Assembly (NCBI RefSeq): GCF_002300555.2
Contig: NZ_NTHN02000001.1
Span: forward strand, 62,001-126,000
DNA: 64,000 nucleotides
Direction of reading: 5' to 3'
Origin: Alloyangia mangrovi
GTDB taxonomy: Bacteria > Pseudomonadota > Alphaproteobacteria > Rhodobacterales > Rhodobacteraceae
Part shown: piece after piece, positions 25,677 to 44,138 of the stretch
Position numbering within the stretch: position 1 is the first letter of the stretch
How the letters are laid out: each line of letters begins with the position of its first letter
Made by a program: the position numbers and the translations under genes
The notes under the pieces: generated by a model
Database searches by the model: none
What the model saw: only the letters and a program-made list of their open reading frames with translations
Told to the model about the DNA's origin: nothing

Positions 25677-26573
25677 ATGCGCCTACGTCAAATCGAGGTT
25701 TTCTTTGCGATCTGGCGCAGCGGGTCGGTGACCGCTGCCGCCGAGGAACTGGCAATCTCCCAATCGTCGGTCAGCAAGACGCTCAAGCACGCCGAGCAGA
25801 GCCTCGGGTTCGAGCTGTTCCACCGGGTGCGCGGCAAGCTGGTGCTGTCGGAGGAGGGGGAAATCCTGCTCAACGATGCCGCGCGAATCTTCGAAAGCCT
25901 GGACCAGATGCGCGGCCGCGCCGCCGGATTGCGCAATGGGCTCGCCCGCTCGGTGCGGGTGGTCTGCCTGCCCAGCCTCGGTCAGTGGCTGATCCCGCAG
26001 AGCGTCGTCAAGTTTCACGCGGAATTTCCCAAGGTGGCGATGGAGATCACCACCAAGCACGAGGGCGAGATGCTCGAAGGGGTACGTGCGCGCGAGTACG
26101 ATCTCGCCTTCGCCTTCGGACCGGCCGACGATCCGCCGCATTTTTCCGGGTTGACCAGCGAGAAGGTGACCGAGGGCCAACTGGTCTACATCGAGAGCGG
26201 CCGGGGTGGATGGGCCGCGCCGGTGACCCTCGCCGAGATCAACTACGCGACGCTGATCAACCTCAGCGGGCGGCATTTCCTCGGCAACGCGCTGCGCGAG
26301 GAGCTGGCGGAGCGCGGTCTGCCAGAGCGGTCGAACATCTTGGTGCAGACTTATTCCGTCGCCCGCGAGCTCATCGCCAACGGCCTTGGCAGCTGCATCG
26401 TCGACGAGTTCACCGCGATCACCCGGCCGATCAACGTGCGCATCCGGCCGCTTCGACCGAAGATCCGCTTCGGCATCCATCTCTACCACCGCGAAGGCGT
26501 CGTGCTGTCGCGGCACGAGCGGGCCTTCCTCGAAATGGTGCGCGAGGCCGCGGCCACCGCGCGGCGCCACTGA
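25677..26573 (+). CDS. LysR-family transcriptional regulator
   Basis: A 298-residue regulator. The helix-turn-helix is RLRQIEVFFAIWRSG, then AAEELAISQSSVSKTLKHAE, within residues 1-60. The effector domain has VRVVCLPSLGQWLIPQSVVKF and an AREYDLAFAFGP segment. Unlike the two GcvA-type LysR genes at the left end, it belongs to a CysB/LysR-like branch. It sits at the 3' end of, and converges on, the nine-gene minus-strand operon starting at 37963. The gap to that operon is only 31 bases. It is the likely activator of the operon, acting at the distant 38 kb promoter. Effector unknown. Confidence 0.9.
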   Translation: MRLRQIEVFFAIWRSGSVTAAAEELAISQSSVSKTLKHAEQSLGFELFHRVRGKLVLSEEGEILLNDAARIFESLDQMRGRAAGLRNGLARSVRVVCLPSLGQWLIPQSVVKFHAEFPKVAMEITTKHEGEMLEGVRAREYDLAFAFGPADDPPHFSGLTSEKVTEGQLVYIESGRGGWAAPVTLAEINYATLINLSGRHFLGNALREELAERGLPERSNILVQTYSVARELIANGLGSCIVDEFTAITRPINVRIRPLRPKIRFGIHLYHREGVVLSRHERAFLEMVREAAATARRH

Positions 26574-26604: not shown

Positions 26605-27783
26605 TCAGAGCACCGAGGCGACCGCCCGCGCGAGGACCGGGGCCTGTGCCGCATCGAGCCCGGCAAGATTGATCCGCCCGTCCGAGACCATGTAGATCGC
26701 TTGCTCGTCGCGCAGCCGGTCGACCTGTGCGGCGCTGATCGGCAGGCAGGAGAACATGCCCTTCTGCGTGCCGAGGGCGGCGAAGCGCTGTGCGTCTATT
26801 TCCGCCAGTGCCTCGGCAAGCGCCGCGCGGTTGCTCGCCACATGCCGGCGCATCGCCTCGACCTCTCCGCGCCATTGCGCGGCCAGCTCGGGGGTGCCGA
26901 GGATGTCGCGCACCAGCGCCGCGCCGTGGTCCGGCGGCATGGAATAGGCAACTCGGTTGCGCACCCCGAGCTGGGCCTTGGCGATTCCCGCGGCTTCGGC
27001 GGTTTCCGACAGCACGAAGGCGGCGCCGACGCGATCGCGGTAGATGCCGAAGTTCTTCGAGCAGCTGTAGGCCAGCAGGAGCTCGGGCAGCCGGGCTGCC
27101 ATCTTGCGCAGCGCCGCCGCATCCTGCTCGAGACCGTCGCCAAATCCCTGGTAGGCCAGGTCGACGAAGGGCAGCACGCCGCGCGCGGCGATGGCGTCGA
27201 TGATCCGGTCCCAGTCTTCCGCGACGGGGTCGGCGCCGGTCGGATTGTGGCAGCAGCCGTGCAGGAGGATCACGTCGCCCGGGGCCATCGCCGCGATGTC
27301 AGAGAGCATCTCCTCGATGCGCAGCTGGCCGCTGGCGGCGTCGAGATAGCGGTAGCTGGTGGTGCGCAGCCGCGCATCGGCGAGCACCGAGTGGTGGTTG
27401 ACCCATGTCGGGTCGGGCACATGCACCACCGCCTCGGGCGCCTGCTGCGCGATGAGGCCGGCCAGCACCCGCAGCGCCCCGGCGCCGCCGGCGGTCTGCA
27501 CGCCGCCGATCCGGGTCACGGGCGCTTCGCTGCCGAAGGCAAGGTCGCGTACCAGCTCGACGAAGCGCGGATCGCCGCCCGGCCCGACATAGGCCTTGGT
27601 CTGCAGCGTGGCCACATGCGCCGCCTCGGCGGTAGCCACAGAGGGCAGGATCGGGGTGCGTCCCTCGGGGTCCTTGTAGACGCCGACGCCGAGGTCGAGC
27701 TTGCCCTGCCGGGTGTCGGCGCGGAACAGCTCGCTCAGCGACAGGATCTTGTCGGGCGGCGGGGCGGTCATGGTCTGGAACAT
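26605..27783 (-). CDS. Aromatic amino acid aminotransferase (TyrB/AspC family)
   Basis: A 392-residue class I aminotransferase of the aspartate/tyrosine subgroup Ia: GKLDLGVGVYKDPEG near 29, SCSKNFGIYRDRVGA with the PLP lysine, GCCHNPTGADP, and a C-terminal DGRINLAGLD. The start MFQTMTAPPPDKIL at 27783 matches family N-termini. The ATG at 27771 would give an ATGA overlap with the upstream gene. It converts aromatic or dicarboxylic amino acids to 2-oxo acids. It is the last gene of the operon with ammonia-lyase, FAD oxidase and UbiD, which suggests an aromatic or imidazole side chain. Confidence 0.88.
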   Translation of the reverse strand: MFQTMTAPPPDKILSLSELFRADTRQGKLDLGVGVYKDPEGRTPILPSVATAEAAHVATLQTKAYVGPGGDPRFVELVRDLAFGSEAPVTRIGGVQTAGGAGALRVLAGLIAQQAPEAVVHVPDPTWVNHHSVLADARLRTTSYRYLDAASGQLRIEEMLSDIAAMAPGDVILLHGCCHNPTGADPVAEDWDRIIDAIAARGVLPFVDLAYQGFGDGLEQDAAALRKMAARLPELLLAYSCSKNFGIYRDRVGAAFVLSETAEAAGIAKAQLGVRNRVAYSMPPDHGAALVRDILGTPELAAQWRGEVEAMRRHVASNRAALAEALAEIDAQRFAALGTQKGMFSCLPISAAQVDRLRDEQAIYMVSDGRINLAGLDAAQAPVLARAVASVL

Positions 27784-29255
27784 CGGAAAGCGTCCTTATG
27801 GGGCTCGGGGGCGCCTTTGGCATCATCGCCGCAGGAGCCGAAAATATTGCCCGGGTTGAGCCGGTTTGCGGGATCGAAGGCGGATTTGATCCGCCCCATC
27901 AACGCCAGCTCCGCCGCGGGTTTCATGCGCCGCAGCGCGGCGCGCTTGTGCAGGCCGATGCCGTGCTCGGCGCTCACCGTCCCGCCGAGCGAGAGGGCGA
28001 TGGACTCGATCGCCTCGGAGAGCGCCGCCTTGCCGGGCAGCGCGTCGCCAGGTGCTGGGGGCATCACGTTGACGTGGATGTTGCCGTCGCCGATATGGCC
28101 GAAGAACGCCGCCCGCAGGCCCCCGCCAAGCGCCGCGACATGTGCGTCGACGCCCGCCACGAAGCGTGGCACCTGCCCGAGCGGCACGGCGCAATCGGTG
28201 CGCAGGATCGGGCCGCGCCAGAGATCCATCGCCTCTGCCACGCCTTCTCGCAGGCTCCAGAGGCCGAGCCGCTGCGCCTCGCTCTGCGCGAACACGCCAT
28301 CCCCGGCCAGCCCCTCTTCGAACGCCGCCTCGAGCAGCGCGTCGAAACCGGCGGCAAGGTCGAAGAAGCGGCTGGTGCGCTCTGCCTCGAGCAGCAAAAG
28401 CCAGCCGGGAGCGCTTTCCAGCGGTACCTTGGCGACGCCCATCCCGGCGGCGAAGTCGGTGGCGCTGCGCGACATCAGCTCGGCGGCGGTCACCGCATCG
28501 CCGAGCAGGTCGCGCGCCAGTCGCAGCAGCGCCAGCGCCTGCGCCGGTCCTGCCAGGCCGAAAAGCGCCGCCTGCCGGTCCAGCGGTGGGGCGCGCAGCT
28601 TCAGCGTCACCGCGGTGACAAAGGCCAATGTGCCCTCGGAGCCGGCGAGCAGCTGCGGCAGGCTGTAGCCGGTGTTGTCCTTCCACAGCTCCGCCGCGCC
28701 GGCAATGAGAGTGCCATCGGCGAGCACCGCCTCGATCCCGAGGATCTGGTCGCGCGCCATGCCGTGGCGAAGCACGTTGGCGCCGCCGGCATTGGTTGCG
28801 ACCGAGCCGCCGAGCGTCGCGCTGCCGGCGCCGCCGTGGGTAAGCCCGAGGTGCAGACCGGCCTCCCGCGCCGCCGCCTGTGCCTCGGCCAGAACCACGC
28901 CGGCCTCGGCCACCATCAGGCAGGCGTCGCGGTCGATGCGGCGGAGGGTGCGCATGCGTTCGGTCGAGACAACGAGGCTCGCCGCGCCTGCGCCGGGGGT
29001 TGCGCCGCCGGCAAGACCGCTGCCACCGCCGCGCGGCACCAGCAAGATTGGCAGGTCGGCCAGAAGCGCCAGGCCCTCGGACAGCATCTCGGCGGAGGAG
29101 GGGCGGAAGACGCAGAGTTCCGCCTCCTCCTGTCGGTACATGAGATCGCCCCGGTAGGGGGCGATCTGGGTGGGGGCGTCGAGCACGGCGGAGGCCCCGA
29201 ACCTTTCGGCGAGGCGGCGGACCGCCTCTGCCCGGATCGCGGAAGCCTCGCGCAT
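27768..29255 (-). CDS. FAD-binding D-2-hydroxyacid dehydrogenase (GlcD/D-lactate dehydrogenase family)
   Basis: A 495-residue flavoprotein. The N-terminal FAD_binding_4 domain contains LLVPRGGGSGLAGGATPG near 87-104 and GLTHGGAGSATLGGSVATNAGG near 140-161. The C-terminal FAD-oxidase domain contains FGHIGDGNIHVNVMPP near 385-400, VSAEHGIGLHKR near 433 and FDPANRLNPGNIF. It oxidises a D-2-hydroxy acid (D-lactate, glycolate or an aryl-lactate) to a 2-oxo acid and passes electrons to the respiratory chain. The start lies 2 bases from the ammonia-lyase stop, and the stop overlaps the aminotransferase. In context it could feed or drain an aryl-pyruvate pool. Confidence 0.9.
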   Translation of the reverse strand: MREASAIRAEAVRRLAERFGASAVLDAPTQIAPYRGDLMYRQEEAELCVFRPSSAEMLSEGLALLADLPILLVPRGGGSGLAGGATPGAGAASLVVSTERMRTLRRIDRDACLMVAEAGVVLAEAQAAAREAGLHLGLTHGGAGSATLGGSVATNAGGANVLRHGMARDQILGIEAVLADGTLIAGAAELWKDNTGYSLPQLLAGSEGTLAFVTAVTLKLRAPPLDRQAALFGLAGPAQALALLRLARDLLGDAVTAAELMSRSATDFAAGMGVAKVPLESAPGWLLLLEAERTSRFFDLAAGFDALLEAAFEEGLAGDGVFAQSEAQRLGLWSLREGVAEAMDLWRGPILRTDCAVPLGQVPRFVAGVDAHVAALGGGLRAAFFGHIGDGNIHVNVMPPAPGDALPGKAALSEAIESIALSLGGTVSAEHGIGLHKRAALRRMKPAAELALMGRIKSAFDPANRLNPGNIFGSCGDDAKGAPEPHKDAFRCSRP

Positions 29256-29257
29256 GG

Positions 29258-30871
29258 TCAGTTCAGCACGCCGACCGCGGCTTCTACCGCGGCGAGCACT
29301 TCGCCGGATTGCGCCATGGCGAGCACCGGAACCCGCTGGTTTACCATGTAGCTGTCCTCCTGCATGAAGGGCACCTTGGCGCGCAGCGCGTCGTAGGCCG
29401 CCTGGCTGCCCTTGCCAAGCGCGTAGTCGCCGAGCACCTCTTCGGTGAGGAAGATCGCGCGCGCCGCCAGCAGGTACTCGACGCCGACGATCTTGGGCAT
29501 GTTGTCGAGGATTTGCTGCGCCTTGCGGCAGGACCATGCGGCCATCGACACGTGGTCTTCCTGGCTCGACTTGGTCGAGATGGTGTCGGCCACCGAAGGG
29601 AAGGCCAGCGTCTTGTTCTCTGAGGCGACGGCGGCCGCCGAGGTCGCGATGATGCCATAGCCGTAGTTCAGGCCGATCGGCTTTCCCGCGAGGTTCGGCG
29701 GCAGGCCGTAGTTCAGCGTCACATCGTTCAGCGCGAAGAGCCGGCGTTCCGAGATGTTGCCGATCTCGATCAGCGCGATCGACAGGATGTCCATGGCGAA
29801 GGCGATCGGCTCGCAGTGGAAGTTGCCGCCCGACATGAATTCCAGCGCGCCGAGCTCGTTCCAGAACACCAGCGGGTTGTCGGTGGCGGCGTTGAGCTCG
29901 CGGGTGACCAGCGTCTTGGCGTGCTCGAGCTGGTCGCGGCACGAGCCGTGGACCTGCGGCAGGCAGCGGAAGGAATACTGGTCCTGCACGCGCGGGCTAT
30001 GGGTCGGGTGCAGGAAGTCATCCTCGAGATGCACCGCGCGGCAGCCCTCGGTGGTGCGCTTCGAGCCTTCGATGATGCGGCGGATGTTCTCGGCCACCTC
30101 GATCTGGCCCGGCTGCTTGCGGGCGGCGTGGATGCGCGGATCGAAGGCGGCCTGCTCGCCGCGGATCGCCTCGAGCGACAGCGCGCCGGCGGTGTCGGCA
30201 ACCTTCATCATGCGCTCGGCGTCCCAGAGCGTCAGCGCGGCCATGCCGGCGCAGAGCGAGTTGCCGTTGATCAGCGCGAGGCAGTCCTTGGCCTGCAGGT
30301 CGAACTGGATCGGGCTGATGCCGGCCTTTTCCAGTGCCTCGGGGGCCTTCATCGTCACGCCCTCATAGGTGGCCTCGGCCTCGTCGTAGCCGATCAGCAC
30401 CGAGACCATATGCGCCAGCGGCGCAAGGTCACCCGATGCGCCGACAGAGCCCTGGATCGGCACCACCGGGTGCACGCCCTTGTTGAGCATCTCGATCAGC
30501 CGGTCGATCACCTCGACCCGAAGGCCCGAGACGCCGAGGCAGAAGGCGTTGATCCGCACCACCATCATGGCACGCACGATCTCTTCCTTGGCCGGATCGC
30601 CGAAGCCCGAGCAATGCGACAGCACAATGTTCTTCTGGAAGCGCTCATTGTCGGCCTGGCTGATCTTGTAGTCCTTGAGCTTGCCGACGCCGGTGTTGAA
30701 GCCGTAGGTCGCCGGCGCGTTCTCGGTCAGCCAGTTCTCCTCGATGTAGTTGCGGACCTTGACGATCTCGGTGCGCGCCTCGGGCGCGAGCGTCACCTGC
30801 ACGCCGTCGCGGGCGACGCGGACGACGTCCTCGATGGTCAGGCTGTCGCCGTCGAGAATGATTGCGGTCAT
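29258..30871 (-). CDS. HAL/PAL/TAL-family ammonia-lyase with MIO motif, histidine-type active site
   Basis: A 537-residue MIO lyase that eliminates ammonia from an aromatic amino acid. The cofactor triad is A145-S146-G147 in GSVGASGDLAPL, with catalytic Y56 (ATYGFNTGVG). Residues that hold the imidazole in characterised HutH appear conserved: H86 (LSHCSG), Y299/R302 (QDQYSFRC) and E438 (QEDHVSM), plus N202. This points to histidine or a histidine analogue rather than Phe/Tyr. No urocanase, imidazolonepropionase or other hut gene is nearby. Instead it lies between a TRAP transporter and an FAD oxidase, in an operon with UbiD. It is slightly longer than typical HutH (about 510). Confidence 0.87.
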   Translation of the reverse strand: MTAIILDGDSLTIEDVVRVARDGVQVTLAPEARTEIVKVRNYIEENWLTENAPATYGFNTGVGKLKDYKISQADNERFQKNIVLSHCSGFGDPAKEEIVRAMMVVRINAFCLGVSGLRVEVIDRLIEMLNKGVHPVVPIQGSVGASGDLAPLAHMVSVLIGYDEAEATYEGVTMKAPEALEKAGISPIQFDLQAKDCLALINGNSLCAGMAALTLWDAERMMKVADTAGALSLEAIRGEQAAFDPRIHAARKQPGQIEVAENIRRIIEGSKRTTEGCRAVHLEDDFLHPTHSPRVQDQYSFRCLPQVHGSCRDQLEHAKTLVTRELNAATDNPLVFWNELGALEFMSGGNFHCEPIAFAMDILSIALIEIGNISERRLFALNDVTLNYGLPPNLAGKPIGLNYGYGIIATSAAAVASENKTLAFPSVADTISTKSSQEDHVSMAAWSCRKAQQILDNMPKIVGVEYLLAARAIFLTEEVLGDYALGKGSQAAYDALRAKVPFMQEDSYMVNQRVPVLAMAQSGEVLAAVEAAVGVLN

Positions 30872-30937
30872 CTGGGGTAGTCCTTTCGTTGGTCCCGGCC
30901 ACGCGTGCCGGAGAGGGAAGAGGGTACGAGTGAGGGG

Positions 30938-32254
30938 TCAGCCCAGCCCGGTGAGCCAGAGCGCGAGGCCGGGCACGAAGAGCACGAGCAGGATCCGGAG
31001 GATGTCCATCGCGTAGAAGCCGAGCACGCCGAGGTAGGTCTGCTGGATCGGCACGTCCTTGGCGATGGAGTTGATCAGGAACAGGTTCATCCCGAAGGGC
31101 GGCGAGATCATCCCGGTCTCGACGCTCATCAGCACGAGGATGCCGAACCAGATCAGCACGGCGTCGGACGTCATGCCGAAGTCGAGGCTGGTCATCACCG
31201 GCACGAAGACCGGTAGCGTCAGCAGCACCATGGCCAGGCTTTCCATGAAGCAGCCGAGGATTATGTAGATGATCAGCAGGCACAGCAGGATCATCACCGG
31301 CGGCAGCGCCAGCCCGCCAATCCAATGCGAGATCTCATTGGGCAGCTGCGACAGCGCCAGCGCCGCCGAGAAGAGTTCGGCCGCGAACATGATCAGGAAC
31401 ATCATGGCCGAGGTGATCCCCGCCGCAATGACGCTCTCGACGAAGCCCTTCCAGCGCAGCCCGCCGCTGACAACTGCCAGCACCAGCGTCGCGAAGGCGC
31501 CGACGGCGGCGCCGTCGGTGGGCGAGAACCACCCGAGGTAGATGCCCAGCACCACCACGGCAAAGACGATGAGGATCGGCCAGACCGCCCGGGTGGTCTC
31601 GAAGCGCGCGCGCCAGCTCGCGCGGGGCACCGACGGGGCGGCCTCTGGCTTGAACAGCGCCCAGAGGATCACGACGAGCGCGTATTGGATCACCGCGACA
31701 AGCCCCGGCAGCAGCGCCGCCACGAAGAGCAGCCCCACCGACTGTTCGGTGTAGATGGCGTAGATCACCAAGATCACCGAGGGCGGGATCAGGATGCCCA
31801 GCGTGCCGCCGCCCGCGAGCGTGCCGGTGGCCAGCGAGGGCGCGTAGCCCATCTTGCGCATCTCCGGCAGGGCGACCTTGGACATGGTCGCCGCGGTGGC
31901 CAGCGACGAGCCGGAGATCGCGCCGAAGGCGGCGCAGCCGCCGATCGTGGCCACCGCCAGCCCGCCGCGCCAATGCCCGAGCCAGGCCCGCGCCGCGGCG
32001 AAGAGCCGGGTGTTCATCCCGCCGCGCGTGGCGAATTCGCCCATCAGCAGGAAGAAGGGCAGCACCGAGAGCTGGTAGCTGGAGAACTTGGCGAAGGTCA
32101 TCGACTTCAGCGTCGAGAGCACCGGCGAGAGGCCCGTGATCATCGCGTAGCCGGCGATCCCGGCGAGCAGCATGGCCCCGGCCACGGTCATCCGCAGCGC
32201 GATCAGGATCAGCGCGGCGGCGAACATCATCAGGCCGATATCGAACTTATCCAT
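30938..32254 (-). CDS. TRAP transporter large permease (DctM family)
   Basis: A 438-residue membrane protein with about 12 hydrophobic segments. DctM hallmarks include LPFFLLMGEFATRGG near 64-78, GCAAFGAISGSSLATAATMSK (shortened here; near 106-126) and GTLGILIPPSVILVIYA near 149-165. It catalyses sodium-driven uptake of a carboxylate delivered by the DctP-type protein at 32789. Its start overlaps the small permease by eight bases. The 66-base gap to the ammonia-lyase gene holds a ribosome site but no clear terminator, so transcription probably continues. Confidence 0.93.
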   Translation of the reverse strand: MDKFDIGLMMFAAALILIALRMTVAGAMLLAGIAGYAMITGLSPVLSTLKSMTFAKFSSYQLSVLPFFLLMGEFATRGGMNTRLFAAARAWLGHWRGGLAVATIGGCAAFGAISGSSLATAATMSKVALPEMRKMGYAPSLATGTLAGGGTLGILIPPSVILVIYAIYTEQSVGLLFVAALLPGLVAVIQYALVVILWALFKPEAAPSVPRASWRARFETTRAVWPILIVFAVVVLGIYLGWFSPTDGAAVGAFATLVLAVVSGGLRWKGFVESVIAAGITSAMMFLIMFAAELFSAALALSQLPNEISHWIGGLALPPVMILLCLLIIYIILGCFMESLAMVLLTLPVFVPVMTSLDFGMTSDAVLIWFGILVLMSVETGMISPPFGMNLFLINSIAKDVPIQQTYLGVLGFYAMDILRILLVLFVPGLALWLTGLG

Positions 32255-32792
32255 GGAGGGCTGCCTCCGGCTTGCGCGCCTGGCGCCCGGTGGCCACGCG
32301 CAGCGCGGTCCAGGTGGTGTAGAGGATGGTGATCACCCAGATCACGCCGGCGATTGCGCCGACGAGGTATGTGGGCCACTCCGGCAGGCCGAGGAACATC
32401 GACTGCTTGTTGCGCACGAAGGCCGAGTTCCCGCCGACCGTCAGCCGCCAGGTGAGCAGCGCCGCGATCAGCGCGAAAACCAGCGTCACCACCACGTCCG
32501 AGATGTTGCGAACCACCTCGGGCAGCGGCTTTGAGAAATAGTCGACCACGATATTCGCGCCCTGCAGGTGGCACGGCGCAAGGAAGCAGAAGATCGACGC
32601 GCCGATGAGCAGCTCGACGATCTCGTCCGCACCGAGGATGGGATGACCGAAGGCATTTCCGAGCACGTGCACCACCAGCGTCAGCATGGCGGCGACCATG
32701 AACAGCCCGCCGATCAGGGCAAGCCCATGGCAGACCCGCTCCAGGGTCCGCCCTGCACTTGCGTGCAGGGCGTCGTCGCGCGATGCGCTCAT
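32247..32792 (-). CDS. TRAP transporter small permease (DctQ family)
   Basis: A 181-residue protein with four hydrophobic helices (near residues 20-43, 55-75, 92-112, 135-158), standard for DctQ. The ATG at 32792 overlaps the DctP-type stop (ATGA). The longer reading from 32915 would run backwards through the binding-protein gene and is rejected. It forms the membrane complex with the DctM subunit. Confidence 0.9.
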   Translation of the reverse strand: MSASRDDALHASAGRTLERVCHGLALIGGLFMVAAMLTLVVHVLGNAFGHPILGADEIVELLIGASIFCFLAPCHLQGANIVVDYFSKPLPEVVRNISDVVVTLVFALIAALLTWRLTVGGNSAFVRNKQSMFLGLPEWPTYLVGAIAGVIWVITILYTTWTALRVATGRQARKPEAALHG

Positions 32793-33838
32793 TCGGTGCG
32801 CCCGAATTTCGCGGTGATGGCCATCAGGTCGTCGAACATCTCCTGGCCGGGCAGGCCGCGCTTGTTCATCTCCTCGATCCAGATCTCGTAGACAGGCTCG
32901 ACAGAGGCCTTCCATGCCGCGATCTGGTCTTCCGGCAGCGCGTAGAGCGTGCCGCCCTCGGCTGTGATGGTTTCCTTGGCGTCCGCGGTCAGCCCGTCGA
33001 TCTGGTCGGCGATCTCGACCGACTTCTCGAAGCCGATGTTGGCGTCGATCACCGCCCGCAGGTCCTCGGGGAGCGCTTCGAAGCTGCCTTGGTTCATCAG
33101 CACGAAGATGGCGTTCTGATAAAGCGGCGTCTCCATGTGGTACTTGGTGACTTCCTGCAGCTTGTAGGGGGTGACGATGGCCCAGTTGATGGTCATGCCG
33201 TCGACTTGGTGCCGCTCGAGCGCCTCGTAGGTCTCGCCGAGGCTGAGCCCGATCGGGGTGCCGCCCCAGGCCTTGACCGCCTCGCCGGTATAGCGACCGG
33301 GGGCGCGGACCTTCAGGCCCTGCATGTCGTCCATGCTCGAGACCTGCGTGTCGACCGTGTGGAGAACCGCGGCATCGGTGGCGTGCATGTGCAGGATCTT
33401 GATGCCGGCGAACTCGTCCTCCATCAGCCAGTTGTCGGCGAAGGTGAGCAGCGCGCCGGTCTGGCCCGCCGAGGTGCCGACATTGGTGAAGGGCATGTCC
33501 ATGCCCTCGAGACCCGAGAAGCGTCCGGGGGTCAGCCCGGGGATGCCGACGATGATGTCGACCACCTGATCTTCCATCTGCTCGACGAGGTCAGAAGCGG
33601 AGCCGCCGAGCTGCATCGAGGGGTAGAACTCGATCTTCAGCCGGCCGTTGGACTGGGCCTCGACCGCCTCGATGAAGGGCAGCACCATGTGGATCGCCTC
33701 GGGGGCCTGCGGGCCCGAGAAGCTGTGGATCTTGAGCGTGTAGCTGTCCTCGGCGAAGGCCGCGGCAGGGGTGACTGCGGCGGCGGCGGCAAGGGCCGTG
33801 AACTGGCGTCGGGTGGTCCTGATCATGGGATTGCTCAC
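32789..33838 (-). CDS. TRAP transporter substrate-binding protein (DctP family), Tat-like signal
   Basis: A 349-residue periplasmic receptor. The N-terminus MIRTTRRQFTALAAAAA has a twin-arginine-type motif and an AFA cleavage region. Start at 33838 or at the internal ATG 33826. The mature protein has YTLKIHSFSGPQAP, YPSMQLGGSASDLVEQM, MQGLKVRAPGR near 178 (the Arg that binds the ligand carboxylate in DctP proteins) and a helical C-terminus. Dimeric DctP-like members bind carboxylates, including aromatic and 2-oxo acids. In this operon an N-substituted or cyclic amino acid derivative is a plausible ligand. Confidence 0.9.
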   Translation of the reverse strand: MSNPMIRTTRRQFTALAAAAAVTPAAAFAEDSYTLKIHSFSGPQAPEAIHMVLPFIEAVEAQSNGRLKIEFYPSMQLGGSASDLVEQMEDQVVDIIVGIPGLTPGRFSGLEGMDMPFTNVGTSAGQTGALLTFADNWLMEDEFAGIKILHMHATDAAVLHTVDTQVSSMDDMQGLKVRAPGRYTGEAVKAWGGTPIGLSLGETYEALERHQVDGMTINWAIVTPYKLQEVTKYHMETPLYQNAIFVLMNQGSFEALPEDLRAVIDANIGFEKSVEIADQIDGLTADAKETITAEGGTLYALPEDQIAAWKASVEPVYEIWIEEMNKRGLPGQEMFDDLMAITAKFGRTE

Positions 33839-33887
33839 TGTTGGGGATGTTTGTCTTTGCTTGTCCTCCTCCCGTCTTCACCGCGCC

Positions 33888-35324
33888 TCAGTCGGGTGCG
33901 GCCTCCCCCGTCTCCTCGGCGCGCCGCGCCCCGGCGCGGATGCGGGCAACGATCCCGGCGGTCGCGTCATAGGCTGCCTGCGGCGGCAGCGCCGGCGTCC
34001 AGTCGGGCCGGTCGTCGGCCCGGCGGGTGGCGACGAACCCGTAGTTGGTGATCGTCCCGCCAAGCTTCATCGGCTCGGAGCGGTCGGTGCGCATGCCGGG
34101 AACGATGACGATGTCACGCTCGGCGCGCATCCGGGTCATCACCGCGGTGCGCACGGCGAATTCGTCCCAGGGGTCGACGTCCTCGTCCACCACGGTGACG
34201 TGTTTCACAAGGTTGACCGCCGAGAGCGCCCCGAGGATCGCCTTCTTCGGATCGCCGAGGTGATGGCCCTCGGCCAGAGTCACCACCGCCGAGAGGCGGC
34301 CGCAGCCCGAGTTGTCGATGGCCACGCGGCGCACCGAGGGGATGATGCCCTTGAGATGGCTCTCGAGCCCCGCCGCGATCGACACGCCGCCGATCAGAAG
34401 ATGCTCGAGGTGGAAGCCCGGCACGATGGCCTGGAACATCGCATTGCGGCGGGCGGTGATCTTGGTGATCCGCACCAGCTGGCCGGGGCCGTAGTCCTCG
34501 TACATCCCGTGGTATTCGCTGACCGGCCCTTCGTGCACCCGCTCTTCGGGGTCGATCACGCCCTCGATGACGATCTCGCAATCGGCGGGCACCAGCAGGT
34601 CGGAGGTCTTGCAGCGTACGCAGTCGATGGGTGCCCCCTCGAGCGCGCCGGCCACTTCCATCTCGTCATCCCCGAGCTTGAGGTAGAGCGCCGCGGCCAG
34701 CAGCACCGAGGGCGCGTTGCCGAGGGTGATGGCGATGGGCTGCTCCTCGCCGCGGGCGGCGGCGGCGCGGGCCATGACGGCAAGGTGATGGTTGGGCGCG
34801 ATGCCGATCAGCGCGGTGTCCGGCCCGGTGGGGCGCAGGCGCGCATAGGAGAGGTTGGCGATGCCCGCGGCGCTGTCCTTGGCGACGATGCAGCCGGCGG
34901 TGATGTAGGGGCCGCCCTCGTGTTCGAAGAAGCGCGGGATCGGCAGGGCGGAGAGGTCCTTGCCGAGATCGACCTCCTGGCAGGCGCCGGTCTCGACCAC
35001 CTTGGGCGCGACGGGGCGACCGATGGCATCGGAAATCGCCGTTGGCAGGTCGGCGCGGGTCAGGCCGAGCCCCAGCGCGACCCGGTCGATCGAGTTGAGC
35101 ACATTGGCAACCACCGGCATTCCGGTGGGTCCGGTCTGGGTGAAGATCGCCGCGGGTCCATCGTGCAGCGCCGAGGCCATGGCCGAAAGCTCGAACCCGT
35201 CCGGGTCCACCGGCGTGGCGATCTCGGCCAGCTCGCCGCGCGCCTGCAGCAGCGCCATGAAGCCGCGGAAGCTGTTGGTCTTGTCGGCGGCGTTTTCAGG
35301 AAGCGTCATCGTGGTGTCTTTCAT
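33888..35324 (-). CDS. UbiD-family prenylated-FMN decarboxylase
   Basis: A 478-residue member of the UbiD family, which uses prenylated FMN and a divalent metal to (de)carboxylate aromatic, heteroaromatic or alpha,beta-unsaturated acids. Visible are IANLSYARLRPTGPD near 157 (cofactor-binding region with conserved Arg), AIGNAP-type ITLGNAPSVLLAAA, and the EGPVSEYHGMY active-site segment near 269-279. That segment has the E-x-x-x-x-E spacing of the catalytic glutamates. It starts three bases after the carbamoylase stop. Its cofactor maker UbiX is encoded at 38598 on the other strand. The neighbouring ammonia-lyase suggests an aryl- or imidazolyl-acrylate substrate rather than ubiquinone biosynthesis. 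Confidence 0.9.
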   Translation of the reverse strand: MKDTTMTLPENAADKTNSFRGFMALLQARGELAEIATPVDPDGFELSAMASALHDGPAAIFTQTGPTGMPVVANVLNSIDRVALGLGLTRADLPTAISDAIGRPVAPKVVETGACQEVDLGKDLSALPIPRFFEHEGGPYITAGCIVAKDSAAGIANLSYARLRPTGPDTALIGIAPNHHLAVMARAAAARGEEQPIAITLGNAPSVLLAAALYLKLGDDEMEVAGALEGAPIDCVRCKTSDLLVPADCEIVIEGVIDPEERVHEGPVSEYHGMYEDYGPGQLVRITKITARRNAMFQAIVPGFHLEHLLIGGVSIAAGLESHLKGIIPSVRRVAIDNSGCGRLSAVVTLAEGHHLGDPKKAILGALSAVNLVKHVTVVDEDVDPWDEFAVRTAVMTRMRAERDIVIVPGMRTDRSEPMKLGGTITNYGFVATRRADDRPDWTPALPPQAAYDATAGIVARIRAGARRAEETGEAAPD

Positions 35325-35327
35325 GAG

Positions 35328-36584
35328 TCAGGCCGCATCGGCCTTGAGGAGCGTGTCGAGCAGGCAGCGGGCGCCAGCGGCCATCTCTTCGGGGCTGGTC
35401 CATTCCTCGGGGCAATGGCTGAGCCCGCCCTTCGAGGGCACGAAGATCATCGCCGCCGGGGCGATCTGCGACAGGAACACCGCGTCGTGTCCGGCACCCG
35501 AGGCCAGCTCTCGGCTCGCCATCTGGCGCTCGGCGGCCGAGACGGCGATCATCTCGCGCAGCGCGGGCGCACAGGCGGCGGGGGCGACGTTGCTGATCTG
35601 GGTGAAGGCGTCGAGCCTGCAGCCCTCGGCCGCCGCCGCCGCCTCGGCAAGCTGGCGGAAGAGCGCCACCTGCCGGGTCATGAGCGTGCTGCTCTCGGCG
35701 CGCATGTCGATGATGATCTCGGCGCGGCCGGGCACGACGTTGGCGCCGCCCGGAAGGATGTCGACGACGCCGATGGTGGCGACGAAATGCCCTTCGCCCG
35801 CCGCTGCCGCGGCGATCGCCGCATCGCGCATCGCCAGCTGGAAGCGCGCGAGGGCGAGGCTGGCATCTTGGCGTAGGGACATCAGCGTTGTGCCTGCGTG
35901 ACCTGCCTCGCCCGCGAAGGCGAGCTTCAGCCGCACCACACCGGCAATCCCGGAAACCACGCCCACCGGCACCTGCTCGCGCTCCAGCACCATGCCCTGC
36001 TCGATGTGCAACTCGACATATGCAGCGAGGTCGTCACGCCGGGCCTCGTCGAGCCGCGCAACATCGCCGCCGATGCGATCGATGGCGTCGGCCAGTGTCT
36101 CGCCGCCCGGCCCGGTCAGTGCCAGTTCCCGCGCGCCGAGCGCCCCGGCCATGCCGCGGCTGCCGACGCAGGAGAGGCCCCATTCGCTGGGCTCCTCGGC
36201 AAGGAAATCCACCAGCTCGAGGCTGTGCCGCGGCTGGTAGCCCGCCGCCCGCATGGCGCGGATCGCGGCAAGCCCGGCGAGCACACCGCCGATGCCGTCG
36301 AAGCGGCCGCCGTCGGGCACGGTATCGCTGTGCGAGCCGGTCATCACCACGCGCTCGGGCAGCTCGCGGCCCTCAATCCGGCCGATCAGGTTGCCCGCGG
36401 GATCAATGCGCACCGAAAGCCCCTCGGCCTCGAAGGCCGCGCGCAGCCAGTCCCGGCCCTCGAGGAAGAGCCTGGAGAAGGAGCGCCGGGTCCAGGGCCG
36501 GTCGGGATCGGTGATCCCGGCCAGCGCCTCGATGTCGGACCAGAGCGCGGATGCGTCGATGTCGGGCGTCGCGGTCATGGTCAC
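35328..36584 (-). CDS. N-carbamoyl-L-amino acid hydrolase/allantoate amidohydrolase family (M20)
   Basis: A 418-residue binuclear metal hydrolase. Metal-site motifs run in family order: GSHSDTVPDGGRFDG near 85-99, FLAEEPSEWG near 127, YVELHIEQG near 191, and C-terminal SGAGHDAVFL and GGLSHCPEEWTSPE near 365-395. It splits N-carbamoyl amino acids (or ureido acids) into amino acid, CO2 and ammonia. The gene overlaps the hydantoinase-like gene by four bases (ATGA), the classical hydantoin-utilisation pairing. The product would be an L-amino acid available to the operon's ammonia-lyase or aminotransferase. Confidence 0.9.
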   Translation of the reverse strand: MTMTATPDIDASALWSDIEALAGITDPDRPWTRRSFSRLFLEGRDWLRAAFEAEGLSVRIDPAGNLIGRIEGRELPERVVMTGSHSDTVPDGGRFDGIGGVLAGLAAIRAMRAAGYQPRHSLELVDFLAEEPSEWGLSCVGSRGMAGALGARELALTGPGGETLADAIDRIGGDVARLDEARRDDLAAYVELHIEQGMVLEREQVPVGVVSGIAGVVRLKLAFAGEAGHAGTTLMSLRQDASLALARFQLAMRDAAIAAAAAGEGHFVATIGVVDILPGGANVVPGRAEIIIDMRAESSTLMTRQVALFRQLAEAAAAAEGCRLDAFTQISNVAPAACAPALREMIAVSAAERQMASRELASGAGHDAVFLSQIAPAAMIFVPSKGGLSHCPEEWTSPEEMAAGARCLLDTLLKADAA

Positions 36585-37963
36585 TCCGCCGCCAGAGCCG
36601 CGGCGACCGGGCGCGTGGGCTTGACCCAGCTGCCGGTGCCGGGCGCCGCCAGCACCTCGGTGCCGTCGAAGACCAGCTCACCGCGCAGGAAGGTGGCGAT
36701 GGCAGCGTGCTGGATGGCGCGCCCTTCGTAGGGGCTCCAGCCGACCACATTGTGCCCGGAGGCGGCGGCATCGTAGACGCGCGGGCGATGCGCGTAGACC
36801 GCGATGTCGGCGTCGCAGCCCACCGCGAGCTGGCCCTTGCGGTCCGAGATGCGGAACAACCGCGCGGCATTGCCCGACAGCAGCTTCGCCGCATGGGTCA
36901 GCGGCAGACCGCGCGCAACGAGGCCGTCGATCAGCAGGCTGCCCATGACCTCGAGCCCCGGCATGCCCGAGCTGTTCTCAAGCATCACCGGAGAGGACTT
37001 GCGCTCGAGGCTCCACGAGACGTGATCGGTCGACACCACGGTGATATTTCCGCGCGCCAGGTGATCCCAGAGCGCCTCGCGCTCGGCACGGGCGCGGATC
37101 GGCGGGTTGCACTTGGCCTTGCCGACCAGCCGCGAGACATCCTCCTCCTCGCAGCAGACGAGGTAGTGGATGCAGGCCTCGATGGTCGCATCGACCCCCT
37201 GCGCGCGATAGCTTTCGGCCATCTCGTAGCCGCGGCCGAGCGAGCAATGCACGATATGGCCCGAACAGCCGGTGTCCTGGGCGATCTCGTAGACCTCGGC
37301 GATCGCCAGCGTCTCGGAGGCCGCGGGGCGCGAGGCGGTATGGGCCCGGTAGTCGGTGATCGCTGCGGCCTTGACCCGGGCCATGGCGGCCTCGATCATC
37401 TCCTGGTTCTCGTTGTGCACGCCGGCGATGAGCCCGGTCTTGGCAACCTCGGCGAAGGCGGCGTGCAGGAGCGGCGTGGTGATCCGGGGAAAGCGCACCG
37501 GGTCCGTCTCGAAGGTCGAGAACTTGAACGCCGCGGCCCCTGCCTCGGCCAGGCCGGCGATCTGCGACACGCCGTGGTGCGGGTTGATCGTGGCATAGAG
37601 GGCGAAATCGACGCGGGCCTGCTCGGCGGCTTCGGCGGCCTTCTCCCTCAGCAGATCGGGCGTCGAGATCAGCACGCCCTGGTCGTAGGGCATGTCGACG
37701 ATGGTGGTGACGCCGCCGGCCGCCGCGGAACGCGTCGACCAGATGAAATCCTCCTGGTCGCCCTGGCTGCGCGAGTGCACCTGCGGGTCGATCGCCCCGG
37801 GCAGGATGTAGGCACTGCCGAAATCGTCGGTCTGCACGGCGGCGGGCGCGACTCCCTGGCCAAGGCGGGCGATCTTGCCGCCCGCGATCGCGACGTAGCC
37901 GTTCTCGATCACGCCTTCTTCGGTAACGAGCGTGCCGCGCACCACCCTGTCAAAATCAGCCAT
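36581..37963 (-). CDS. Hydantoinase/allantoinase-like cyclic amidohydrolase with QxH metal motif
   Basis: A 460-residue amidohydrolase. The usual first metal motif HxH is Q61-V-H63 (GAIDPQVHSR). The other ligands are present: K147 (AAFKFST, carbamylated-lysine position), H183 (GVHNENQ), H239 (HIVHCSLG) and D313 (VSTDHVSW). Some dihydroorotase-like proteins also have a Gln here, so activity is still possible. ATG 37963 is chosen because GAGGACC precedes it; the longer reading from 38029 lacks a site. First gene of the nine-gene operon. With the carbamoylase, it would open a hydantoin-type ring into an N-carbamoyl amino acid. Confidence 0.85.
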   Translation of the reverse strand: MADFDRVVRGTLVTEEGVIENGYVAIAGGKIARLGQGVAPAAVQTDDFGSAYILPGAIDPQVHSRSQGDQEDFIWSTRSAAAGGVTTIVDMPYDQGVLISTPDLLREKAAEAAEQARVDFALYATINPHHGVSQIAGLAEAGAAAFKFSTFETDPVRFPRITTPLLHAAFAEVAKTGLIAGVHNENQEMIEAAMARVKAAAITDYRAHTASRPAASETLAIAEVYEIAQDTGCSGHIVHCSLGRGYEMAESYRAQGVDATIEACIHYLVCCEEEDVSRLVGKAKCNPPIRARAEREALWDHLARGNITVVSTDHVSWSLERKSSPVMLENSSGMPGLEVMGSLLIDGLVARGLPLTHAAKLLSGNAARLFRISDRKGQLAVGCDADIAVYAHRPRVYDAAASGHNVVGWSPYEGRAIQHAAIATFLRGELVFDGTEVLAAPGTGSWVKPTRPVAAALAAE

Positions 37964-38005
37964 AGGGTCCTCGATCTGTATTTCTCGGACCATGTCTTGG
38001 TCGGC

Positions 38006-38022
38006 TTGAGGGCTGAACTCAA
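38006..38022. promoter_or_regulatory. Candidate operator upstream of the hydantoinase-ammonia-lyase operon
   Basis: TTGAG-N7-CTCAA lies 43-59 bases upstream of the operon's first start. A second partial dyad, GAACT-N9-AGTTC, overlaps at 38015-38033. LysR proteins bind such dyads, and the operon's LysR gene is at 25677. Assignment is inference from symmetry and position. Confidence 0.35.
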
Positions 38023-38064
38023 ATTCCAAGTTCGCCGCAGGTCATGGCCTGAGGGAATACAATC

Positions 38065-38535
38065 TCAGGATGTATCTGCGGCTAGGAACGGTGCCATCCT
38101 GCGCGCGATCTCCGCCTCGCCGAGGCCCAGCAGGCGCAGGTAGCGCGGTGCCAGATCGCCCTCGCCGGCGCCCGCCAGAAACCCATCGGCAAGCGCCTCG
38201 ATGTGCAGCTTCTCTGCCTCCAGCTCGACCGCCTTTATCCTTTCGCGCAAGGCGTTTGCGGCGGGGTCCGCGACCTTTGGCTTGAGCGTCACCCGGACAG
38301 AGCGGAGCGGCCTGATGACCGTCTCGCGCCATTCGGTGGCGGAGCCGATCCAGTCGGAAAAGGCGGGGTCCGAGAGCCCCTGGCCGGCCCTGTCGGCAAG
38401 CACGCAAATCAGGAAAATCGGCACATCCGCGTCAAACTCATGCTGAAGATTCAGGCATTCACCGGAAATTCCGCTTAATCCGTAGAACTTTACCATCTCG
38501 GCAAAAACCGAGGTGCAAAATTTTTCTCTTTCCAT
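38065..38535 (-). CDS. TIGR02444-family protein of unknown function
   Basis: A 156-residue protein matching my recollection of the TIGR02444 (DUF2390) family of proteobacterial hypotheticals. It has an N-terminal helical part (FAEMVKFYGLSG, then LICVLADRAGQGLS) and basic central and charged C-terminal helices. It has no signal peptide or clear catalytic motif. It lies upstream of the hydantoinase operon on the same strand, separated by 101 bases. It is divergent from ubiX. Nothing in the sequence ties it to either. Confidence 0.75.
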   Translation of the reverse strand: MEREKFCTSVFAEMVKFYGLSGISGECLNLQHEFDADVPIFLICVLADRAGQGLSDPAFSDWIGSATEWRETVIRPLRSVRVTLKPKVADPAANALRERIKAVELEAEKLHIEALADGFLAGAGEGDLAPRYLRLLGLGEAEIARRMAPFLAADTS

Positions 38536-38597
38536 GGTCTCCCGCCGAGTGCTTGAAGAGGGCCTATTACACGTACGGACTAAACAAGGTGCAGCAG

Positions 38598-39167
38598 GTG
38601 GCCGAAAGCAGAATCGTCGTCGGAATTTCCGGGGCCTCAGGGGCCATCTACGGGCTGCGCTGCCTCGACATGCTGCGCGCGGCCGGGGTCGAAACGCATC
38701 TCGTGGTCAGCCGCTCGGGCGAGCTGACTTTGCGGTCGGAATGCGGGCTGGGATTGCGCGATCTGGAGGCGCGCTGCGACGAGATCCACGCGGTCGGCAA
38801 CGTCGGCGCGACGATCGCCAGTGGCTCGTTCCGCACGCTGGGGATGATCGTCGCGCCTTGTTCGATCCGCACCCTGTCGGAGATCGTCTCGGGGGTCACC
38901 TCGACGCTGCTCACCCGCGCCGCGGACGTGGTGCTCAAGGAGCGCCGACCGCTGGTGCTGATGGTGCGCGAGAGCCCGCTGCACCTCGGCCACCTACGCA
39001 GCATGACCGCCGCTGCCGAGATGGGCGCGATCATCGCGCCGCCGATGCCCGCCTTCTACGCCGAGCCGCAGAGCATCGATGACCTGGTGAACCACTCGGT
39101 GGGCCGGGCGCTCGACCTCTTTGGCATCGACAGCGACATCACCCGCTGGCGCGGGCTCGGCAAGTAG
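38598..39167 (+). CDS. ubiX: UbiX-family flavin prenyltransferase
   Basis: A 189-residue flavoprotein of the UbiX/Pad1 family that makes prenylated FMN for UbiD decarboxylases. Signatures are RIVVGISGASGAIYGLRCLDML near residues 5-26 (FMN site; quoted in parts), MIVAPCSIRTLSEIVSGV near 91 and KERRPLVLMVRESPLH near 120. I choose GTG 38598 because AAGG lies eight bases ahead and the protein then begins like relatives. GTG 38589 or TTG 38553 are alternatives. It is transcribed away from the operon containing ubiD, but close enough to share a regulator. Confidence 0.9.
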   Translation: MAESRIVVGISGASGAIYGLRCLDMLRAAGVETHLVVSRSGELTLRSECGLGLRDLEARCDEIHAVGNVGATIASGSFRTLGMIVAPCSIRTLSEIVSGVTSTLLTRAADVVLKERRPLVLMVRESPLHLGHLRSMTAAAEMGAIIAPPMPAFYAEPQSIDDLVNHSVGRALDLFGIDSDITRWRGLGK

Positions 39168-39187: not shown

Positions 39188-40168
39188 TCAGGCCGGGACC
39201 GCCGCCGCGGGAAGGGGGAAATGGCAGGCCGCCTGCTGGCCGAGGGGCGTGGTGGCCAACTCGGGCCGGACCCGCGCGCAGATGTCTTGCGCAAAGGGGC
39301 AGCGGGTGCGGAAGGCGCAGCCACCCTCCTCCTCGAGCCGCGAGGCCCGCACAGCCCGCTCGGGGCTCGGCACCACCTTGGCGCGTGCGTCTGGTACCGG
39401 CACCGCATCAAGCAGCGTCCGGGTGTAGGGATGCGCCGGGCGCTCGAAGATCTGCCGCACGTCGCCGATCTCGACGATCCGCCCCATGTAGAGCACCGCG
39501 ATGCGGTCGCAGATGCTGCGCACCACGGCAAGGTCGTGCGAGATGAAGATCATCGCCAAGCTGCGGGCGCGGCGCATGTCGCGCAGCAGGTTCAGCACCC
39601 GTGCCTGCACCGACACGTCGAGCGAGGCGACCGGCTCGTCGCAGACCAGCATCTCGGGGCGCAGGGCCAGCGCCCGGGCGATGGCGATGCGCTGGCACTG
39701 CCCGCCGGAAAACTGGTGCGGACGACGGCCCTCGACCATGCTGCGGCTCATCCCGACCTCGGCCAGCGCGGTGTCGACCCTCTCGGCTATTTCGGTCTTG
39801 CCGACACCCTGGATCCGCAGCCCCTCGGCGACGATCTCCTCGATCCTCCGGCGCGGGTTGAACGAAGATACCGGGTCCTGGAAGACCATTTGCGCCTGCG
39901 CCCGGAAGGCCTTGAGTTCGGCCGCCTTCGCGGCAGTCAGCGGGCGGCCGTGGAAATCGATCTCGCCGGACACGTTGCGCTCGGCGAAGGGCAGCAGCCG
40001 CAGCACCGCGCGGCCGATGGTGGTCTTGCCAGAGCCGCTCTCGCCGACGAGGCCGAGCGCCTCGGTCGGGCCGAGATCGATGGACACGTCGTCGACCGCC
40101 TTGAAGCTCTGCCGTCCGCGCGGAAAAGTGACGGAAAGGTTGCGGACGTGAAGCAGCGGAGCGGTCAT
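39188..40168 (-). CDS. Oligopeptide/dipeptide ABC transporter ATP-binding protein (DppF type)
   Basis: A 326-residue ATPase. Walker A is GESGSGKTT near 42-50, Q-loop MVFQDPVSSFNPRRRI, and Walker B LVCDEPVASLDVSVQA. The signature reads FSGGQCQR, with Cys where relatives have Gln or Lys. The C-terminal oligopeptide-type extension has four cysteines near 292-317 (CAFRTRCPFAQDIC), probably an iron-sulfur or metal site as in other Dpp/Opp ATPases. The ATG at 40168 overlaps the partner ATPase stop. It is the last gene of the operon from 45725, and ends 20 bases past ubiX in convergent orientation. Confidence 0.9.
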   Translation of the reverse strand: MTAPLLHVRNLSVTFPRGRQSFKAVDDVSIDLGPTEALGLVGESGSGKTTIGRAVLRLLPFAERNVSGEIDFHGRPLTAAKAAELKAFRAQAQMVFQDPVSSFNPRRRIEEIVAEGLRIQGVGKTEIAERVDTALAEVGMSRSMVEGRRPHQFSGGQCQRIAIARALALRPEMLVCDEPVASLDVSVQARVLNLLRDMRRARSLAMIFISHDLAVVRSICDRIAVLYMGRIVEIGDVRQIFERPAHPYTRTLLDAVPVPDARAKVVPSPERAVRASRLEEEGGCAFRTRCPFAQDICARVRPELATTPLGQQAACHFPLPAAAVPA

Positions 40169-42095: not shown

Positions 42096-42096
42096 G

Positions 42097-43062: not shown

Positions 43063-43103
43063 AGTCGTCCTTGTTCTGGCTTGGCCCTTGGGGGTGGCGG
43101 AGC

Positions 43104-44036: not shown

Positions 44037-44069
44037 CGGTCTTTGCCTTGTCGGTTCTGATAACGTTTG

Positions 44070-44097: not shown

Positions 44098-44105
44098 AGT
44101 GCACA

Positions 44106-44126: not shown

Positions 44127-44138
44127 CACGGGGAGCGA

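Follow-up and report, generated by a model that had tools for sequence, protein, structure and literature searches.

A ten-gene operon of Alloyangia mangrovi, lying on the minus strand from 38535 to 26605 of a 64,000-nucleotide stretch of contig NZ_NTHN02000001.1 (hereafter the window), is best seen as encoding a variant of thiohistidine-type catabolism that would end in glutamate. We suggest, tentatively and with somewhat less than even confidence, that it is a catabolic operon for a histidine substituted at C2 of the imidazole ring and bearing a free amino group, most likely an oxidized thiohistidine such as 2-sulfonated histidine. The gene set is real and conserved, and the co-occurrence of its members (two amidohydrolases, ErtD and ErtE, the ammonia-lyase HAL2 of the histidine ammonia-lyase (HAL) family, and a UbiD-family enzyme that uses prenylated flavin mononucleotide (prFMN)) is more than chance.

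Both amidohydrolases score above curated NCBIfam cut-offs (ErtD, NF058538, 740.4 vs. 600; ErtE, NF058540, 534.2 vs. 520), and NCBIfam names them as the final two steps of ergothioneine catabolism, which suggests that in the window they probably form the end of a pathway yielding glutamate rather than its start. The start of ErtD is probably the internal Met of 'MADFDRVV' and not the listed TTG, since the match to NF058538 starts at residue 26. In a midpoint-rooted tree of 59 ErtD rows, in which long branches elsewhere leave other joins unsure, the window row has Mangrovicoccus as its neighbor and Devosia enhydra as the next, with starred support, and three ErtDs of ergothionase clusters fall inside the UbiD-linked ErtDs. 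As the ErtDs of both kinds of cluster are mixed in the tree, the two kinds probably share this reaction. The same genome also has an ErtD paralogue under the cut-off (G000:C119:29069-30394, L121; 468 vs. 600), near dipeptide-type ATP-binding cassette (ABC) transporter genes.

The lyase HAL2 has histidine ammonia-lyase 7tqr as its closest solved structure (323 bits, with ergothionase at 210), is 40% identical to the HutH of its own genome, and falls just under the hutH equivalog cut-off (TIGR01225, 537.2 vs. 539.15) while reaching that of the subfamily NF006871 (560 vs. 524). Alignments to 1gkm and to the genome's own HutH show that it keeps the HutH catalytic residues, Y53, H83, N195, Y280, R283, F329 and E414 in HutH numbering, together with the Ala-Ser-Gly triad that forms the 4-methylideneimidazole-5-one (MIO) group. 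The MIO group suggests a substrate with a free amino group, and the retained residues make imidazole a good guess among the imidazole or aryl side chains that an earlier note on this DNA had allowed. At the position of HutH Met382 the window lyase has Gly; the 14 HAL2 proteins aligned have G (8), S (4) or A (2), Gly is found in all three ergothionases and all nine MIO-less lyases of the HALdivB/C group, and Met in all five HutH-like proteins, with K and A in two further rows (HALdivA and a second Bradyrhizobium lyase, 47% identical to HAL2). Ergothionase takes a 2-thio ring and has a small residue at 382, which suggests that the HAL2 substrate is a histidine substituted at imidazole C2. Some genes annotated as histidine ammonia-lyase, such as hutH of Allorhizobium ampelinum plasmid pAtS4e, belong to this separate lyase group with its different pocket residue. 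A divergent HAL-superfamily group that lacks the MIO triad (HALdivA; L014:5456-7270 and L119:16703-18496, 48% identical to each other) lies near ErtE and UbiD or near ErtD.

In the pathway that we envisage, the substrate would be imported by the TRAP transporter of the operon and perhaps also by an adjacent ABC transporter, while a GlcD-type oxidase and an aromatic aminotransferase (AroAT) would supply the amino acid from its hydroxy- and keto-acid forms. HAL2 would then remove ammonia to give a C2-substituted urocanate, and UbiD, with prFMN supplied by UbiX, would act on this imidazole acrylate with loss of the C2 substituent, leading toward hydantoin-5-propionate; this is the weakest step of the scheme. 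By their curated models, ErtD is predicted to convert hydantoin-5-propionate to N-carbamoyl-L-glutamate, and ErtE to convert the latter to glutamate, CO2 and ammonia. The flow toward hydantoin-5-propionate is indicated by a thiourocanate hydratase (998 vs. 930, L021) and a thiohydantoin desulfurase (604 vs. 440, L020) in the operons of several relatives.

Conservation and organization of the gene set

We scanned for relatives of the window UbiD (83 confirmed, the best 80 kept) and obtained 79 loci, in which presence was counted at thresholds set for the locus survey; many loci end inside the cluster, so that the counts refer to the locus stretch examined. ErtD is present in 49 of these, ErtE in 52, both in 49, and UbiX in 40. 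A MIO-type lyase occurs in 17 (13 HAL2-like and four HutH-like), a MIO-less lyase of the HALdivB group in 10, any HAL-family lyase in 27, and ergothionase in none of the 79. An ErtC-like gene is found in 17 and an ErtB-like gene in 18 (a match in L046 is HutU and is excluded), and ErtD and ErtE are accompanied by neither in 33 loci; TIGR02444 is matched, at a lenient threshold, in 23, with a phosphoenolpyruvate (PEP)-mutase-family gene in 27 and SBP_bac_5 in 25. No counted lyase lies within the stretch of 38 of the 49 loci with both amidohydrolases, and for the clusters of R. johnstonii, D. enhydra and Hyphomicrobiales UR115 the lyase was confirmed only on looking further along the genome. Among loci longer than 21 kb, 49 of 53 have ErtD, ErtE or a lyase, and of the 13 loci (from 79) with none of these, nine cover less than 20 kb. 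The partner genes sought in the survey were found in none of four control loci around UbiD relatives at 35-37% identity.

In a sample of the class, this UbiD occurs at E<=1e-100 in three of 385 genomes, all three among the five that have ErtD above cut-off, and the HAL2-type lyase is rare in the order (one of 390 genomes at E<=1e-150, the window's own). Among plasmids, seven records, all Agrobacterium or Allorhizobium, carry the lyase at 60-80% identity and all seven carry UbiD; the other four of the 11 UbiD records are without that lyase, two of them carrying a MIO-less lyase instead. The closest relative found is Mangrovicoccus algicola (UbiD 85%, lyase 89%), and by record names the UbiD relatives belong to Actinobacteria and to the Alpha-, Beta- and Gammaproteobacteria, the gene set being scattered among bacteria of soil, plants and the sea. 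A UbiD gene directly next to a lyase or ErtE gene is seen repeatedly, in groups as far apart as Actinobacteria and Alphaproteobacteria. The conserved co-occurrence of the lyase, UbiD and both amidohydrolases, which the earlier note had named as a test of its reading, thus extends well beyond the window genome.

The architectures in these relatives are diverse. The fullest, in Burkholderiaceae and Rhodoplanes (A), is ErtD-ErtE-UbiD-ErtC-ErtB-TRAP-HAL2-GlcD-AroAT, and the Rhizobiales have UbiD-UbiX-ABC with the PEP-mutase family-TIGR02444-ErtD-ErtE-HAL2, with AroAT either following HAL2 or lying upstream and TIGR02444 missing from some clusters (B). The window and Mangrovicoccus share a third form (C). 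In Bradyrhizobium (D) the S-methyl thiourocanate hydratase and S-methyl thiohydantoin desulfurase models are matched above cut-off, and in Pandoraea (E), where the locus is without a lyase, ErtB, ErtC, ErtD and ErtE are above cut-off (one strain tested in each case). Actinobacteria (F) have HAL-ErtD-UbiD-ErtE-UbiX, with ErtD and ErtE under cut-off in the one strain tested; in Bifidobacteriaceae this order is followed by an apparent amino-acid ABC transporter, and the scores are 398 and 438 vs. 600 and 650 for ErtD and 467 vs. 520 for ErtE. Marine metagenome-assembled genomes (MAGs) show a MIO-less lyase-UbiD pair (G), and an NtaA/DmoA-type monooxygenase stands beside UbiD in 10 of the 79 loci (H), its family having been checked on the L074 copy. 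These last loci are L059, L064, L072, L073, L074, L076, L077, L080, L081 and L086, with copies 50-100% identical to that of L074. LysR proteins of more than 600 residues lie beside UbiD at L093:8062-9906 and L123:13806-15677, the former matching HTH_1 twice, as would a fusion of two LysR proteins. In A. ampelinum a second PEP-mutase-family gene and an ABC transporter (L123:5952-12538) lie a few kb upstream of the UbiD cluster.

In the window, the nine genes named by the earlier note, with their ubiX and LysR flanks, were correctly placed as one coherent minus-strand operon; its count lacked a tenth gene, TIGR02444/DUF2390. From the 38535 end the order is TIGR02444, ErtD, ErtE, UbiD, DctP, DctQ, DctM, HAL2, GlcD-type oxidase and AroAT, and the intergenic gaps, from the aminotransferase end to TIGR02444, are -16, 92, 66, -8, -7, 49, 3, -4 and 35 bp. 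The features are as follows.

25677-26573, +, LysR-family regulator (Pfam HTH_1 and LysR_substrate), at the far end and convergent with the operon
26605-27783, -, aromatic amino acid aminotransferase, AroAT (NF006719, 488 bits vs. 377)
27768-29165, -, GlcD-type FAD-linked D-2-hydroxyacid oxidase/dehydrogenase (Pfam FAD_binding_4 and FAD-oxidase_C)
29258-30871, -, HAL2, MIO-type ammonia-lyase (NF006871)
30938-32254, -, TRAP large permease DctM (TIGR00786, 291 vs. 268)
32247-32795, -, TRAP small permease DctQ (by position and 43-71% identity in relatives; no NCBIfam match)
32789-33838, -, TRAP solute-binding protein DctP (PF03480, 146 bits vs. 23)
33888-35324, -, UbiD-family prFMN enzyme (TIGR00148, 264 vs. 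245)
35328-36584, -, ErtE-type N-carbamyl-L-glutamate amidohydrolase, a carbamoylase (NF058540)
36581-38029, -, ErtD-type hydantoin-5-propionate amidohydrolase (NF058538)
38065-38535, -, TIGR02444/DUF2390 helical protein, first gene of the operon (74.9 bits vs. 48.3)
38553-39167, +, UbiX flavin prenyltransferase, divergent from the operon (NF004685, 253 vs. 188)
39188-43062, -, dipeptide-type ABC transporter with two ATPases and two permeases (named from annotated orthologues), a putative member of the cluster
43104-44129, -, PEP-mutase/isocitrate-lyase-family enzyme (PF13714, 116 vs. 32), a putative member
44139-45725, -, SBP_bac_5 solute-binding protein (PF00496), a putative member

The block past ubiX (39188-45725, minus strand), with the ABC transporter and the PEP-mutase-family gene, is part of the same cluster in Rhizobiales relatives, and orthologues of the transporter are placed between ubiX and ErtD in Allorhizobium and other Rhizobiales clusters. 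The PEP-mutase-family product has petal death protein, a dimethylmalate lyase, as its closest solved structure. AroAT adjoins the lyase also in the R. johnstonii and D. enhydra clusters. The GlcD-type oxidase is under the GlcD equivalog cut-off (214 vs. 568), and that test therefore does not indicate glycolate. For the TIGR02444 protein a role as prFMN chaperone was considered and not retained; its model is folded and all-helical (predicted local distance difference test, pLDDT, 93.9), and no PDB match was found at E<=0.001.

Elsewhere in the window are a second cyclic amidohydrolase of dihydropyrimidinase type (61872-63296, +; NF009941, 728 vs. 647), which follows a cysteine-desulfurase-like gene and has a polar amino-acid binding protein upstream (58340-59125), and a 946-residue frame (12079-14919, +) that joins an acetate-CoA-ligase-alpha-like part to a crotonobetainyl-CoA-hydratase-like part, both under cut-offs, and adjoins a KCE-like gene (14939-15862), also under cut-off.

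Chemistry of the UbiD step

The closest solved relative of the window UbiD is 6h6v (218 bits), which we take to be HmfF, a furandicarboxylate decarboxylase. The Glu-Arg-Glu set R162/E265/E270 is kept in 83-84 of the 85 rows of the UbiD clade, and this set together with the metal ligands N157, H180 and E221 in 82-84, the roles of these residues being presumed. Near-invariant positions, including R162, E265, E270, H308 and I316 (82-84 of 85 rows), are common to all architectures, which makes it likely that the clade acts on one substrate class. Ile stands in 82 of the 85 rows where 6h6v has Arg 304, a residue with a presumed substrate role in that enzyme, and furandicarboxylate is for this reason an unlikely substrate. 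A cis-trans isomerase was likewise considered and dropped, as it would not supply the ring oxygen of the hydantoin, which normally comes from urocanase-type hydration. Opines, willardiine, diphthamide and carboxylated natural products were weighed as ideas only. The predicted structure model of UbiD has a pLDDT of 82.4.

Urocanase (PF01175) had no match in five of the 43 UbiD genomes searched, the other 38 having a urocanase-family gene. The five are the isolates D. enhydra and Martelella limonii and MAGs of Alsobacter, Bifidobacteriaceae and marine-type Rhodospirillales; the locus of the last is a lyase-UbiD pair only. The other four have ErtD and ErtE with no ErtB or ErtC in the UbiD locus, and D. 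enhydra, M. limonii and the Bifidobacteriaceae MAG have a single PF00221 match, beside ErtD. Hydration in these four must be performed by UbiD or by an unrecognized enzyme, unless the assemblies miss genes, and UbiD may thus be what supplies hydration or desulfonation. In R. tropici, two SfnB sulfur-acquisition oxidoreductases (597 and 619 vs. 431) and an NtaA/DmoA monooxygenase lie beside lyase-UbiD-UbiX, a context pointing to sulfur. For HudA, a published study (PMC7976604) describes a prFMN adduct at imidazole C2 and gives its authors' view that C2 can undergo nucleophilic substitution when a leaving group is present. The sulfur context, this C2 chemistry, the genomes with no urocanase match and an ergothioneine sulfonate pathway known to us by the title of its publication (see below) together favor cleavage of the C2-S bond at the acrylate stage.

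We hence put the chance that the UbiD step is cleavage of the C2-S bond (desulfonation), accompanied or not by ring hydration, at only just short of even; ordinary decarboxylation of a ring carboxylate appears unlikely, and hydration without desulfonation, like any other reaction, decidedly so. A bolder proposal, also unlikely in our judgment, is that the clade is not a decarboxylase at all and that prFMN, as a covalent electrophile or nucleophile on a C2-substituted (sulfonated or oxo) urocanate, would do the work of urocanase and desulfurase in one enzyme to give hydantoin-5-propionate. Bacteria with no urocanase match, such as D. enhydra and M. limonii, would then take oxidized (thio)histidine to glutamate by HAL2, UbiD, ErtD and ErtE alone.

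Several points weigh against a C2-substituted histidine and its desulfonation. We know of no abundant natural source for such a histidine with a free amino group, and this substrate is one that we infer, the pocket argument for HAL2 resting on one residue, position 382. Simple desulfonation to urocanate would make ErtD and ErtE unnecessary. SfnB occurs in just one of 84 UbiD-clade loci (R. tropici), the window has neither an SfnB nor an NtaA match, and an NtaA-type gene is present also in one of the four control loci. UbiD retains the full Glu-Arg-Glu decarboxylase set, and HudA shows weak decarboxylation of imidazole-4-carboxylate (1.3%; PMC7976604).

These last two points lead to the alternative that survives best, in which UbiD would be an ordinary prFMN decarboxylase acting on a ring-carboxylated imidazole amino acid or acrylate, and the resulting (thio)urocanate or analogue would be hydrated by HutU or ErtB before ErtD and ErtE. 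The catalytic residues, the presumed heteroaromatic-acid decarboxylase activity of 6h6v, the slight conversion by HudA and the urocanase-family gene of 38 of the 43 genomes, including HutU in that of the window, are all consistent with it. We are aware, however, of no carboxylated (thio)histidine of this kind, decarboxylation would not make the ring oxygen of hydantoin, and the four genomes with ErtD and ErtE but neither ErtB nor ErtC at the UbiD locus (D. enhydra, M. limonii and the Bifidobacteriaceae and Alsobacter MAGs) have no urocanase match; we consider it rather unlikely.

More doubtful still is a prFMN-dependent hydratase that would convert 2-oxo-urocanate to hydantoin-5-propionate in one redox-neutral step, the operon then degrading 2-oxohistidine, a product of histidine oxidation. 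UbiD, ErtD and ErtE alone would complete the route from acrylate to glutamate, in keeping with the 33 loci that have ErtD and ErtE and neither an ErtB- nor an ErtC-like gene, with the four such genomes that lack a urocanase match, and with the compact Bifidobacteriaceae locus and its apparent amino-acid transporter. Yet we know of no UbiD hydratase, UbiD sits with ErtB-like hydratases in 18 of the 79 loci, and the Bifidobacteriaceae ErtD and ErtE are the ones that score under cut-off.

The earlier note had proposed a different flow, in which a hydantoin or N-carbamoyl amino acid is opened, the aromatic amino acid deaminated and the acrylate decarboxylated to a vinyl compound. Gene functions permit this on paper, and bagremycin/ferroverdin biosynthesis does combine a tyrosine ammonia-lyase with a UbiD decarboxylase (model names BagA and BagN). 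This order is not supported, given that the amidohydrolases are of the terminal ErtD and ErtE type, that relatives' operons include a thiourocanate hydratase and that no gene was recognized for use of a vinyl product. Moreover, a PF00221 search of 30 genomes gave one match in seven and none in two, Bradyrhizobium dw_78 and Nakamurella, both of which have UbiD with ErtD/ErtE-type genes (the Nakamurella ErtD being under cut-off); in Pandoraea iniqua, one of the seven, which has UbiD with ErtB, ErtC, ErtD and ErtE, the single PF00221 match adjoins urocanase and is probably HutH. Since UbiD thus accompanies ErtD and ErtE without a dedicated lyase, it need not act after a lyase that receives its substrate from ErtE, and we regard the proposed flow as very improbable. 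Equally improbable is a role of UbiD and UbiX on an unrelated aromatic acid, with no more than co-regulation linking them to the histidine-type genes, as the 13 loci without ErtD, ErtE or a counted lyase might suggest, set against a partner gene in 49 of the 53 longer loci and the recurring UbiD-lyase or UbiD-ErtE adjacency.

Returning to the oxidized thiohistidine, the gene set connects thiohistidine-type catabolism with a UbiD enzyme in a small, testable form. If the proposal is true, it would provide a bacterial fate for oxidized thiohistidines or 2-oxohistidine, and prFMN chemistry beyond decarboxylation might be shown. Among the titles, abstract openings and open-licence PMC papers searched we found no literature linking UbiD to ergothioneine or urocanate catabolism, an absence that is not proof.

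Relation to known catabolic pathways

Ergothioneine catabolism proceeds in five steps, by ergothionase, thiourocanate hydratase, thiohydantoin desulfurase, ErtD and ErtE. The window operon has the same final two enzymes and a first step of the HAL superfamily, and some of its relatives also have the hydratase and desulfurase, whereas the operon itself has neither, uses a MIO-type ammonia-lyase in place of the MIO-less ergothionase, and adds UbiD/UbiX, TRAP, the GlcD-type oxidase and the aminotransferase. The window genome has a single UbiD-family match, two PF00221 lyases (HutH and HAL2) and one urocanase (HutU). Ergothionase was not found in it, as both PF00221 genes have the Ala-Ser-Gly triad; nor was ErtB, the sole urocanase scoring 941 vs. 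375 for hutU and 649 vs. 930 for thiourocanate hydratase; and tblastn at E<=1e-3 gave no ErtC match across the 64-kb window. Ergothioneine itself was rejected as the substrate of the window operon because neither ergothionase nor thiourocanate hydratase was found in the genome and the lyase has the MIO residues.

Both kinds of cluster can occupy one genome, as in R. johnstonii and Hyphomicrobiales UR115, where the UbiD cluster and an ergothionase-type cluster lie at separate places. The ergothionase-type clusters of these two and a third in G262 comprise an ergothionase-like lyase, ErtD, ErtE, ErtC and ErtB, and UbiD was not found in the three as examined (20 kb viewed for R. johnstonii and UR115). 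The R. johnstonii lyase is closest to the solved ergothionase 6s7j (169 bits), and the other two lyases are named by 49% and 36% identity to it.

The Hut pathway (HutH, HutU, HutI) resembles the window operon in that HAL2 belongs to the HutH family of lyases and shares its catalytic residues. HAL2 differs, however, in its 40% identity to the genome's own HutH and its score just under the hutH cut-off, and hutH and hutU of the window genome are on another contig than the operon. With the UbiD heteroaromatic decarboxylases 6h6v and HudA, the window UbiD has in common the sequence family and the metal and catalytic residues, and prFMN reactivity toward imidazole is documented in HudA; the window UbiD stands apart in its distance from 6h6v, in the Ile in place of Arg 304 and in its gene context.

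A prFMN step may be involved in the bacterial catabolism of ergothioneine sulfonate. The published pathway for that compound (Yan, Huang, Zhang 2022, ACS Catal 12:4825), compared here by its title alone, may overlap with that of the window. The window lyase, having the MIO residues, should take a primary amine rather than a trimethylated compound, but a histidine derivative with an oxidized sulfur at C2 would suit both the lyase pocket and the sulfur-gene context.

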